Below, piece by piece: positions 14,109-54,949 of a stretch of 64,000 bases of DNA. Origin of the DNA: Pseudomonas paeninsulae (GTDB lineage: Bacteria > Pseudomonadota > Gammaproteobacteria > Pseudomonadales > Pseudomonadaceae). Position 1 is the stretch's first letter, and every line of letters begins with the position of its first letter. The position numbers were made by a program, and so were the translations under genes. The DNA is taken from the NCBI RefSeq assembly GCF_035621475.1, contig NZ_CP141799.1, positions 1,600,501-1,664,500 of the forward strand. Direction: 5' to 3'. The notes beneath the pieces are model-generated. The model was not told the DNA's origin. It made no database searches and saw only the letters and a list, made by a program, of their open reading frames with translations.

Positions 14109-14140
14109 ATGACTGCCAGAAAAATCATCCACGTTGACTG
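14109..14140 (+). pseudogene. dinB: Original 5' end of dinB, displaced by the island
   Basis: ATG at 14109 begins [11 protein letters not shown], matching the DinB N-terminus, then diverges. The remainder of dinB is 39.8 kb away and now uses a start supplied by the island. This fragment fixes the insertion point and shows the native start region. Confidence 0.85.
14118..14140 (+). repeat. attL of the dinB-integrated island
   Basis: 23-bp direct repeat (core aaatcatccacgttgactg) identical to 53897-53919. It lies within the dinB 5' coding sequence, 159 bp before the integrase gene. Confidence 0.85.
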
Positions 14141-14241
14141 CACACACCGTCCGCGGATGTTTTTTTGCGTCCGACTGGTGCCTGAATGGCGCGGCGCCTG
14201 GGCATTTTGCGTCCGCTAGCGTCCGCTTGCGTGCTGGCCCA

Positions 14242-14283
14242 GTCGTGAGAAAAGCGGGTATTAAAGCGGGGTTCGTTAGCCGC
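14242..14283 (+). repeat. Imperfect repeat of the right-end sequence (arm-like)
   Basis: Contains aaagcgggtattaaagcggg and resembles 53812-53850 (aagcgggtataaaggcgggt) in the same orientation. Each contains two copies of an a-a-a-g-c-g-g-g-like unit. The location just inside both ends suggests integrase arm-type binding sites (inference). Confidence 0.5.
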
Positions 14284-14298
14284 TAGGAGATACCCGCC

Positions 14299-15471
14299 AT
14301 GCCTTTGACCGATGTCCAAATCCGCCAAGCCAAGCCAGGCCCCAAACCCCGTAAGTTCAGCGATGAGCGGGGACTCTTCATTGAGATTCGCCCTACAGGG
14401 AGCAAGCTCTGGCGCTACCGGTACAAAATAGACGGTGTCGAGAACGTTTTCGCCATTGGCGAGTACCCAGAAATGGGGCTGGCCGATGCTCGAGCGGAGC
14501 GTGATCGTGCCCGAGCGCTGGTGAAGCAGGGGCGGCATCCGGCCCATGTTCGCCGACTCGAACGGGCGAGGCAGAAAGTGGAGAATCAGTCCTCCTTCAA
14601 GGTGGTCGCCTTGGAGTGGATAGCAACCAAGAGCAATGTCAGCGAGAGCTATCGCAACCAACTGACCAGGGCCTTTGCCAAGAACCTGTTCCCTTACATC
14701 GGTCGGCTGCCGGTTCGAGAGGTAACCGCTGCTCAACTGCTGGAGTGCTTGCGGCGTATGGAGAGCAGGGGGGCAACGTACTATGCCATTGCCCTGTGCA
14801 ACTGGCTTTCCCAGATGTTCCGGTTTGGTGTCCGGACGCTACGCGCGGATGCTGATCCCGCAGCGGTGCTTTACGGGGCGTTCGTGCGCAAGCCAATCCA
14901 GCATAGCCAGCCAATGTCCGCCGCGGATATCGCCAAGTTTAGGGAAGGCCTACAGTCCTACGGCGGGTTTCGAACGAACACTATAGCCCTGGAGTTGCTG
15001 CAGCTACTCTTCCTCAGGACGGTGGAGATCCGCCGAGGGCGCTGGGAGCATGTTGACCTGGATGTTGGGCTTTGGGATATCCCGGTCGAATTGATGAAGA
15101 AGGGGCGTCGGCACTTGGTGCCGCTTCCGCCGAGGGCTGTTCAGTTGCTGCGGGAGCTGAAGGGCATCACGGGTGGTGGTGAGCTGATGTTCCCCGGGTT
15201 GAGGCACCCTGATAAGCCAGTTGATGGCTCGACGTTCAATAGGGCGCTGGAGCGACTGAGGATGAAAGGGTTTACGTGCCACGACTTCCGCGCTACTGCC
15301 TCAACTCACCTCTATGAGTCTGGGCTTTTCAGGACCGAAGTAATCGAGATGCAGCTCGCGCATGCGGAGGAGAACAGGACGAAGGCAGCATACAACCATG
15401 CCGAATATCTGCAGGAGAGGCGAGAGTTGATGCGGTGGTGGCAGGAGTATGTGTTGGCTGCTGGGAACTGA
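14299..15471 (+). CDS. P4-type tyrosine integrase of the island
   Basis: A 390-aa site-specific recombinase. The N-terminal DUF4102-type arm-binding domain begins MPLTDVQIRQAKPGPKPRKFSDERGLFIEIRPTG-like. The catalytic domain shows Arg in LRTVEIRRGRW, the HxxR pair in CHDFRATASTHLYE, His in LAHAEENRTKAAYNH and the terminal Tyr in AYNHAEYLQERRELM. Full length and no disruption. It sits just inside attL, reading inwards, and AlpA lies downstream on the opposite strand. Expected to catalyse integration and excision at the dinB site. Confidence 0.95.
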   Translation: MPLTDVQIRQAKPGPKPRKFSDERGLFIEIRPTGSKLWRYRYKIDGVENVFAIGEYPEMGLADARAERDRARALVKQGRHPAHVRRLERARQKVENQSSFKVVALEWIATKSNVSESYRNQLTRAFAKNLFPYIGRLPVREVTAAQLLECLRRMESRGATYYAIALCNWLSQMFRFGVRTLRADADPAAVLYGAFVRKPIQHSQPMSAADIAKFREGLQSYGGFRTNTIALELLQLLFLRTVEIRRGRWEHVDLDVGLWDIPVELMKKGRRHLVPLPPRAVQLLRELKGITGGGELMFPGLRHPDKPVDGSTFNRALERLRMKGFTCHDFRATASTHLYESGLFRTEVIEMQLAHAEENRTKAAYNHAEYLQERRELMRWWQEYVLAAGN

Positions 15472-15482
15472 TGAAGGGCGGC

Positions 15483-15677
15483 TCAGGCCGCCCTGTTTCG
15501 TTTCATCTGTTCGATCCAGTTCTGCACTTCCAGCTGCGACCATCGTGAGTACCGGCCCAGCTTCACGGGTGCGGGAAACTCCTCAAGCTGGATCATGTCG
15601 TAGAGCTTGGACCGGCCGCATCCTACTTGGTCCAGCACTTCCTCGATCTTGATTAGGCGGTCGAGTGGCTTGTTCAT
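15483..15677 (-). CDS. AlpA-family excisionase/regulator
   Basis: A 64-aa MerR-like helix-turn-helix protein: MNKPLDRLIKIEEVLDQVGC, GRSKLYDMIQLEEFPAPVKLGRYSRWSQLEVQNWIEQ. ATG at 15677 has GGAAG upstream; a longer start is possible. AlpA proteins of P4-like islands act as excisionases or activators of integrase expression. Its TGA/ATG overlap with the upstream fragment suggests an original operon. Confidence 0.88.
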   Translation of the reverse strand: MNKPLDRLIKIEEVLDQVGCGRSKLYDMIQLEEFPAPVKLGRYSRWSQLEVQNWIEQMKRNRAA

Positions 15678-53198: not shown

Positions 53199-53248
53199 TG
53201 TTGGAGGCGAAGGGAATCGAACCATCGTCATGAGCTTGGGAGGCTCAA
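53199..53248 (-). other. tRNA-like 3' fragment
   Basis: Minus strand shows TGAGC-CTCCCAA-GCTCA, like an anticodon arm with CCC, then a T arm around GGTTCGATTCC and acceptor-like CGCCTCCA. No matching 5' half. Could be the relic of another element's att site. Confidence 0.3.
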
Positions 53249-53299
53249 GAACCACCTAGCCAGACTGTTTGCCCACACTTCGACGGCGGTGCCGAAAAC

Positions 53300-53705
53300 T
53301 GGGGTACGCAGACGCCTCTCGGCAGTGCGTGTGCAGATCGCCACTGGTGGCTGTAGCTGCGCGTCAGCACCGTGGCTGTGCCAGTGGCGTGCTGTGCGAG
53401 CTACCATACCCGAGCGATGACACTCAACTGATTACCCAGGCGCCCTGGCCTGCCTGGAGCAGGTGTACCGGTTCGGGTTTCGCCTTCTCCAAGGTCGAGG
53501 TGCTGCTGCTCGTCCTGTGCCCGCTCGGCGAGTACACCGTCAACCTGCACCCCGAGACCCAACAAGAGGAATCGCAGAAGGTGATGGCAGTGCTCGATTC
53601 GGAGGGCGCGAAGTGCGGTTGGGGTTGGGACGCCTTGCGCTCAGGCTTCGTGCCGTCGACGCCGGGGTGGATAATGCGGCGTGATACGTCGGAGTTTGAC
53701 CACAA
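53300..53705 (+). pseudogene. UmuC/RulB C-terminal remnant
   Basis: Reads SGVLCELPYPSDDTQLITQA, then in the other frame LACLEQVYRFGF, then FSKVEVLLLVL and SQKVMAVLDSEGAKCGWGWDALRSGFVPSTPGWIMRRDTS. This follows the C-terminal part of UmuC (ELPYPTDDT, SKAEVLLMDL, LMATLDAIN, WGMRRE). At least two frameshifts; no catalytic domain. Confidence 0.6.
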
Positions 53706-53811
53706 GTCTTGATGGCTCCTGGTCTGTAAAGAGGGGATAAACGGTATGATGTTTAGCTACCGTTCGTCGGTTGATGAGTGGTTCTCGTGGTGTCCAGCGC
53801 AGAAAATCCAG

Positions 53812-53850
53812 TCGAGAAAAAAGCGGGTATAAAGGCGGGTATCGGTTGGC
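53812..53850 (+). repeat. Right-end repeat matching 14242-14283
   Basis: Contains aagcgggtataaaggcgggt; similar to the left-end sequence next to the integrase gene, same orientation. Putative integrase arm sites. Confidence 0.5.
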
Positions 53851-53887
53851 GCAATTCTTTTATTTATACAAGAAAAATCAATGATTT

Positions 53888-54949
53888 ATGAGTGAAAGAA
53901 AAATCATCCACGTTGACTGTGACTGCTTCTATGCCGCTATCGAGATGCGTGACGACCCGAGCCTGGCCGGCAAGCCGTTGGCGGTGGGGGGCGCTGCGGA
54001 CCGCCGTGGGGTGATCGCTACTTGCAATTACGAGGCCCGTGCCTATGGGATACGTTCGGCGATGGCCTCCGGGCATGCGCTGAAACTGTGCCCCGACTTG
54101 CTGATCGTCAAGCCGCGGATGGACGCCTACAAGGCGGTGTCGCGCGAAATTCAGGCGATCTTCCGTGAGTACACCGAGCTGATCGAGCCATTGTCGCTGG
54201 ATGAAGCCTATCTGGACGTTTCGGAAAGCCCGCACTTTGCCGGTAGCGCCACGCGTATCGCCCAGGATATTCGTCGGCGGGTCTCGCAGGAACTGCACAT
54301 CACCGTTTCGGCGGGCGTGGCGCCGAACAAGTTCCTGGCCAAGATCGCTAGCGACTGGAAGAAACCCAACGGTTTGTTCGTGATCACCCCGGATCAGGTC
54401 GAGGCGTTCGTGGCTGCCTTGCCGGTGAGTAAATTGCACGGGGTCGGCAAGGTAACCGCCGACAAGCTGGCGCGGCGCGGCATCCGCACCTGCGCGGATC
54501 TGCGCGAGTGGCAGAAGTTGGGCTTGGTGAAAGAGTTCGGCAGCTTCGGCGAGCGCCTCTGGGGGCTGGCCCGTGGCATCGACGAGCGCCCGGTGCAGAC
54601 CGACAGCCGCCGGCAAACGGTCAGCGTGGAAACCACCTACGACCAGGATCTGCCGGATCTGCCGGCCTGCCTGACGCAACTGCCGCAGTTGCTCGACGAG
54701 TTGACGAGGCGCATGACGCGGCTGGATGCCAGTTATCGGCCGGACAAGCCCTTCGTCAAGATCAAGTTCCACGACTTCACCCAGACCACCCTGGAGCAGG
54801 CCGGGGCGCGCTGGGATCTGGACAGTTACCGGCTGCTGCTGAGCGCGGCTTTCGCGCGCGGCAACAAGCCGGTGCGTTTGTTGGGCGTCGGCGTGCGCCT
54901 GCACGACTTGCGTGGGCGGCATGAGCAGTTGGAGTTGTTTGCGCGGTAG
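53888..54949 (+). CDS. dinB: DNA polymerase IV (DinB)
   Basis: A 353-aa Y-family translesion polymerase: [21 protein letters not shown] (catalytic Asp), [29 protein letters not shown] (catalytic Asp-Glu) and the HhH region [17 protein letters not shown]. Its first codons and all upstream sequence come from the island (start MSERK; the ancestral start MTARK is at 14109). The promoter has thus been exchanged. No clear LexA box or strong ribosome binding site is visible upstream. Confidence 0.95.
   Translation: [353 protein letters not shown]
53897..53919 (+). repeat. attR of the island, within dinB
   Basis: 23-bp sequence identical to 14118-14140, covering codons 4-11 of dinB. Confidence 0.85.

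Follow-up and report, generated by a model that had tools for sequence, protein, structure and literature searches.

A stretch of 64,000 nt from Pseudomonas paeninsulae (GCF_035621475.1, NZ_CP141799.1, positions 1,600,501-1,664,500 of the forward strand; hereafter the window, whose positions serve as coordinates throughout) carries an island in the first codons of dinB, the gene for DNA polymerase IV (Pol IV). Very probably, this island is a mobile element that has integrated by means of its own tyrosine integrase, which joins the element's attachment site to the dinB start. The insertion is precise, the same site is empty in another genome of the species, the target is common to a whole integrase clade, and the elements supply dinB with a new start.

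The island is bounded by a 23-bp direct repeat, AGAAAAATCATCCACGTTGACTG, at 14118-14140 and 53897-53919. The two copies are 39,779 bp apart and were the only ones in a genome-wide scan (5.35 Mb, up to three mismatches). As an earlier note on this DNA had described, the repeat lies in the N-terminal codons of dinB: the left copy is inside the native start, which runs into non-dinB sequence and reaches a stop after 36 codons, with no gene behind it, and the right copy is inside a complete dinB of 353 amino acids beginning MSE. In the genome G559 (L126) of the same species (G and L numbers are our handles for genomes, contigs and loci), bases 1-2052 correspond to window 12089-14140 (97.3% identity) and bases 2021-4299 to window 53888-56166 (97.9% identity). 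These two matches overlap by 32 bp only, which is the attachment region; the dinB start is uninterrupted, the site is empty, and no integrase match was found in G559 at the threshold used. Since the repeats are unique and the empty site overlaps by just 32 bp, the 39,779 bp were inserted scarlessly and site-specifically. Thus the proposal that the 5' coding end of dinB was the integration site, with the first codons and everything upstream replaced, is borne out, and the continuous native start that the earlier note had set as its test in island-free relatives was found in this one genome. An attachment core inside the 5' coding sequence, together with an empty site in a relative, places the island with the elements that integrate at gene 5' ends and replace the start. 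The features at the insertion site are as follows (attL and attR, left and right attachment sites).

13854-14081, plus strand: small zinc-ribbon gene, next to dinB on its native upstream side (the Pfam zinc-ribbon matches are weak and under their cut-offs)
14109-14219, plus strand: stub of the native dinB start, 36 codons and then a stop (read from the sequence)
14118-14140, plus strand: attL core, first copy of the 23-bp repeat; the crossover probably fell within 14128-14134 (TCCACGT)
53897-53919, plus strand: attR core, second copy of the 23-bp repeat, encoding RKIIHVD plus part of C
53888-54949, plus strand: complete dinB (DNA polymerase IV) with the island-supplied start MSE (PRK02406 above cut-off)

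The zinc-ribbon gene ends 27 bp ahead of the native dinB ATG, and the same sequence precedes dinB in the island-free G559. The RKIIHVD encoded by the core is a conserved, catalytic motif of Pol IV. Four tRNA-Met(CAT) genes stand in a row with about 200-bp spacing to the left of the island (12910-13591) and are not the integration site.

A 23-bp repeat alone could arise otherwise, for example as a duplication of the dinB start by homologous recombination or as an assembly artefact. Such an artefact does exist in G201, where two dinB starts had suggested a second island; they reflect assembly redundancy, as two contig ends carry the same 1401 bp in inverted orientation. For the window this explanation is scarcely credible, because it is contradicted by the scarless empty site, by the integrase at one edge of the island and by nine further genomes or contigs whose attL is laid out alike.

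The integrase clade points to the same target. A dinB-start core, called with at most one mismatch to a degenerate motif, lies 180 to 183 bp upstream of the integrase in all ten testable cases, namely the window and nine relatives that are 71-83% identical to its integrase. L085 and L087 had too little upstream DNA to be tested, and L071, which is the same contig as L033, was counted once. Among less similar integrases with upstream DNA present, none had a dinB-start core (the best had five mismatches). In the integrase tree, the ten dinB-site integrases together with L085 and L087 form one 12-row clade with 100/100 support; the three changes that the tree counts for the dinB label stem from L085 and L087, which were labelled by default. 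The near-copy rows L071, L163, L138, L156, L136, L141 and L139 and rows shorter than 340 aa were left out of the tree.

Close relatives of the integrase are rare. The dinB type occurs in G000, in G012 and as a broken copy in G242 in the genus sample (298 genomes), in G000, G370, G503, G463, G388 and G574 in the family sample (398 genomes, the draws overlapping), and in G000 only in the order sample (1/293); the frequency was 1/56 in the genus of G503 and 1/25 in the genus of G463. A Stutzerimonas degradans integrase record is the same contig as in G503, and IMG/VR contributes the relatives L085, L086, L087, L131 and L132. All integrase matches among 977 plasmid and 508 phage records were below 60% identity. 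The integrase search undercounts the elements, as G514 and G082 have a dinB right end without such an integrase match. The G082 element measures 66 kb between its two attachment-site copies, and at its left end a deletion fuses the native dinB start (MSTRKIIHVE) to a broken integrase. G082 (L178-L181) also has a weakly dinB-like reading frame (27%) about 7 kb ahead of dinB. G242 (L005) has a rearranged remnant away from dinB: a right-end-like sequence, ATGAGTAAAATAAAGATCATTCACG, runs directly into the integrase at about codon 87-91, and the integrase end lies about 23 kb off on the opposite strand.

Right ends were available for the window, G012, G370, G463, G574, G388, G503, G514, L128, L129, L130, L167 and G082. 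An in-frame dinB start precedes the core in all 13 (ATG in 12, TTG in L130 only), so that the element supplies the start and the upstream region in the window and in the 12 others. Some of these starts are short (MSE, MSQ, MKQ, MTQ, MNQ, MDKKQ) and some longer, for example MKPLNNQPLTRQ. A pair of GCGGGTA-like repeats with the same spacing, in some cases with one or two changes, is found about 60-75 bp before the core in 13/13 right ends, and in none of 40 unoccupied dinB loci within 130 bp before dinB. Repeats of the GCGGGTA type occur at both ends of the island and are probably arm-type integrase sites. The gene is not always kept, since in L167 (IMG/VR 3300009856_000206), whose umuDC is 95-99% identical to that of G463, dinB is truncated a few codons past the core.

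The crossover point could be mapped because hosts and elements differ in their attL and attR cores. In G463 and G574 the mismatches between attL and attR are confined to core positions 1-10 and 18-23, and the sole shared run is positions 11-17, which read TCCACAT there and TCCACGT in the window; the cores of G370, G388, G012 and G503 are compatible with a crossover at the same positions, and the window, whose two cores are identical, is uninformative. These comparisons suggest that the crossover falls in seven bases, core positions 11-17, corresponding to dinB codons 7-9. An exchange zone of 7 bp fits tyrosine integrases. A G at core position 10 gives valine at the second isoleucine (RKIVH) of the hybrid DinB in G370, G463, G574, G388 and L128.

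Judging from sequence, the integrase and an AlpA-like protein encoded next to it would carry out the recombination, with the crossover predicted inside dinB codons 7-9. The attachment site of the element brings along a start codon and initial codons that are in frame with dinB, so that integration separates dinB from its native start and upstream gene and leaves a complete hybrid gene, whose product probably works and whose transcription would now come from the element side.

The next relatives of the integrase (50-62% identity) have a different target of the same kind. A trpG start (MLLMIDNYD-like) was read by eye just before the integrase gene in eight loci, the "trp" label in the tree having been set by identity. 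A search of six genomes located the full trpG start farther along, 29-44 kb away in G486, G467, G484 and G449 and 138-210 kb away in G325 and G416, and all six trpG right ends have arm repeats and then ATG in a layout like that of the dinB elements (L173 with one altered repeat). Exchanging gene starts is therefore a habit of this lineage, with dinB as one of the two targets observed. Members of the sister clade of prophage integrases, which is larger than the dinB clade, include L075-L079, L082, L134 and L150, and the trpG starts are in L171-L176.

It is rather probable that the right end only preserves the gene, that is, that it was selected for harmless integration without any regulatory role, and that dinB expression is little changed or merely low. 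The start is always supplied and the upstream content varies widely, trpG, a biosynthetic gene, is treated likewise by the sister clade, and no promoter-like site on the plus strand was found in the right end of the window or on the native side (consensus scan, weak evidence). What speaks against mere preservation is that several relatives have umuDC or LexA-like boxes next to dinB.

The earlier note had seen here an SOS polymerase gene put under island control. We scored LexA-like sites on a scale with a maximum of 21, on which shuffled 700-bp stretches gave a 95% level of 16.1 and a 99% level of 17.1. The best score was 13.6 in the 700 bp before dinB in G559, below the 95% level, 14.1 at 13592-14117, on the native side of the window, and 13.3 in the island's final 700 bp; a site at 53045, about 850 bp upstream of dinB on the island side, scores 16.3. 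A LexA-like box (at least 17.3) precedes dinB in 21 of 29 unoccupied genus loci (29 among the loci matched in 199 genomes), and no box above background was found at 11 further unoccupied loci of hosts and relatives, the species of the window included (maximum 15.0), or on ten attL sides (maximum 15.3; L086 with 45 bp only). The presence of a LexA box before dinB follows the host lineage, not the island. We also considered that integration severs a native LexA box, and rejected this on the evidence of the ten attL sides and the 11 host and relative loci. Since the native dinB of the species has no visible LexA box, control of an SOS gene by the island is not supported here, as far as such a box goes.

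Some relatives may rewire dinB by setting before it a phage unit under LexA control, either umuDC or a single small gene, so that DNA polymerase V (Pol V) and Pol IV would be co-induced while the element is integrated and excision would return dinB to the host promoter; the window copy would have lost this unit except for a 3' piece of umuC. Intact umuDC lies on the same strand in line with dinB, about 0.2-1.8 kb before it, in 4 of the 12 elements with enough DNA (G574, G463, L128, L167), umuD alone is beside dinB in L129, and the window has the remnant, whereas none of 40 unoccupied dinB loci has umuC or umuD in the approximately 1.5 kb of upstream DNA covered. LexA-like boxes scoring 19.5-21 lie just before umuD in G463, G574, L128 and L129 (L167 was outside the scan), G388 has a perfect box 439 bp upstream of dinB, from which one small gene separates it, and no terminator-like site was detected between umuC and dinB in G574 (consensus scan, weak evidence). 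However, half of the 12 elements have no umuDC beside dinB (G012, where it is far off on the opposite strand, G370, G388, G503, L130 and G082), and no LexA box above background lies within 700 bp of dinB in G012, G370, G503, G514 (557 bp), G082 or the window. In G463 an opposite-strand open reading frame (ORF) separates umuC and dinB, in G574 the LexA box is separated from the matched part of umuD by a terminator-like site (again a consensus scan and weak evidence), and umuDC may simply be SOS cargo that the phage carries at that end. We consider such rewiring possible but doubtful; G082 and, in G574, the terminator-like site make it slightly less plausible. In a broader form of this idea, which seems unlikely, the prophages of this family would capture Pol IV by inserting at dinB codons 7-9, with LexA-controlled umuDC (or a small SOS gene) and dinB as an inducible Pol V-Pol IV unit, and with excision returning the host promoter, so that the prophage state would toggle mutagenic repair. 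At positions of about 8400-10000 in L129, umuD was found without umuC, and a long opposite-strand ORF is present there.

The island itself contains the following features (HTH, helix-turn-helix; E, expectation value).

14254-14272, plus strand: left arm-type repeat GCGGGTATTAAAGCGGGGT, putative integrase arm site
14299-15471, plus strand: tyrosine integrase with Arm-DNA-bind_3, Phage_int_M and Phage_integrase domains (Pfam)
15483-15677, minus strand: AlpA-like HTH protein of 64 aa, possible excisionase, convergent with the integrase gene (PF05930, E 9e-10)
16484-17206, minus strand: zeta-toxin family kinase (PF06414, E 3e-43)
18790-19779, minus strand: lone TrbG/CagX conjugation protein (TIGR02775 above cut-off; PF03524)
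22699-24072, plus strand: IS1182-family transposase (NF033551 above cut-off)
24415-48923, strand unassigned: cargo, mostly copper resistance
50070-52374, plus strand: IS21-family transposase pair IstA/IstB (PF22483, PF01695)
53290-53685, plus strand: phage-type umuC remnant, C-terminal part only (phrog_1268, E 2e-7)
53823-53842, plus strand: right arm-type repeats GCGGGTATAAAGGCGGGTAT

The arm, core-binding and catalytic domains of the integrase are all above the Pfam cut-offs, which makes it an integrase of the Arm-DNA-bind_3 type, and R240, H328, R331, H355 and Y365, presumably its catalytic residues, are invariant in an alignment of 17 sequences. The umuC remnant has no Pfam match and is 51% identical over 102 aa to umuC of the G463 prophage. 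The cargo comprises genes for a cupredoxin, two CopR/CopS-type two-component pairs, an OprD porin, copA/copB, cytochrome c, a heavy-metal P-type ATPase, thioredoxin-like proteins and others. Tandem repeats occur within its cytochrome-c-like gene and copA (31455-31708 and 34242-34528). As to where the cargo came from, coverage of 24400-46900 stayed below 80% in every plasmid record, and among the matches listed (the best 8 of 124) 14-16% of this region is shared at 76-81% identity. A scan of seven proteins for defence genes gave a single, marginal PADLOC match.

Pfam scans of 37 island ORFs found no head, tail or packaging genes, so the window element is not a temperate prophage as it stands. 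An integrative conjugative element was considered and rejected, since the lone TrbG is the only conjugation protein among these ORFs, with no relaxase, coupling protein or full type IV secretion set. Six elements with an intact integrase were read end to end; four of them are prophage-like (G370, G388, G463 and G574, spanning about 41-48 kb), and those of the window and G012 have other cargo. The sampled proteins of G463 matched terminase, portal, tape-measure and primase families, those of G574 and G370 a tape measure, and G388 shares several of the sampled proteins of G463. An AlpA-like relative occupies the same place in all six elements compared, that of the window included, and a direct GCGGGTA copy is present at the left ends of five of the six elements scanned, G463 having an inverted copy only. 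L128, L129, L130, L167, G370, G463 and G574 share, a few kb ahead of their dinB end, a DNA-methylase-like gene of about 85-88% identity; it is in two pieces in G574, and a LexA-like box precedes it in the six scanned (not L167).

Because the window element retains the integrase and AlpA-like genes, both attachment sites, small left-end remnants and the 3' remnant of umuC, the best reading is that a prophage of this family was hollowed out, most of its interior being replaced and refilled with copper-resistance genes and insertion sequences. Several points weigh against the overall account of the island. The supposed prophage ancestry of the window element rests on its small remnants, and the 50-kb element of G012 has only the integrase gene, the AlpA-like frame, umuDC and dinB in common with the prophage elements. 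Moreover, neither an excised circle nor a closed attP (the attachment site of the free element) was found: a zero-mismatch search with an attP/attR-type pattern met three viral contigs, of which two end inside dinB and the third, L167, has dinB cut short after the core. The window element, with insertion sequences and without a recognised phage structural gene, may be stuck. The likeness to a prophage derivative, the clade-wide choice of target and the umuDC beside dinB in some relatives had all been overlooked in the earlier note.

Integration at a gene 5' end with a replaced start is already known as a class, from dusA and mutS, to which dinB is an added target. Our literature searches did not find dinB as an integration target, but most subscription journals were outside their coverage, so absence from print is not established; the dinB passages of two papers concern only multilocus sequence typing (PMC9782041) and a DinB-family protein (PMC4814525). 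The gene of a translesion DNA polymerase joins mutS and mutL among the repair genes that lose their start to mobile elements. Moreover, the shared right-end design at the two targets seen, trpG and dinB, suggests one integrase lineage specialised in gene starts. The elements could also readily account for certain odd N-termini of dinB in genomes of Pseudomonadaceae, and they provide defined lysogens in which a tuning of stress mutagenesis by mobile elements can be studied. The SXT/R391 elements in prfC likewise integrate at a 5' end and replace start and promoter, but they are conjugative and have another target. The trpG-targeting integrases are like the dinB ones in the GCGGGTA arm repeats and the element-supplied ATG, with the trpG start as the core instead. 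The gene umuC has a relative in rulB. Integron-like elements in rulB also use a Y-family polymerase gene of Pseudomonas as target, but they have a 3-bp direct repeat and three recombinases and differ in element type and gene (PMC4542609). The SpyCI islands at the 5' end of the DNA-repair gene mutL are phage-like and affect mutation; SpyCIM1 of Streptococcus is reported to block mutL transcription, whereas dinB here is a complete hybrid gene (PMC4689407, PMC4129442, PMC3430984).

The closest layouts are those at dusA and mutS. The dusA-associated integrases are tyrosine integrases of prophages and islands, typically of 30-60 kb, that act at the 5' end of a protein gene, alter the 5' sequence of the target and have Pseudomonas among their hosts, according to PMC4482086; they are likened to the dinB elements by layout and not by integrase sequence, and their attachment site is in dusA. 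The same paper reports dusA-associated islands in more than 200 genomes, so that, of the earlier description of a rare layout, the replacement of the first codons and of all that lies upstream stands and the exceptional character as a class does not. This group includes the G08 island, which is described as metal-resistant in PMC6070778. The elements in mutS differ in their target and in that excision was demonstrated by polymerase chain reaction, whereas here an empty site was seen in another strain; like the dinB elements, they lie inside a DNA-repair gene at a conserved amino-acid motif and supply a new start and upstream region, and when they excise, mutS can come back under its host promoter (PMC5296598).

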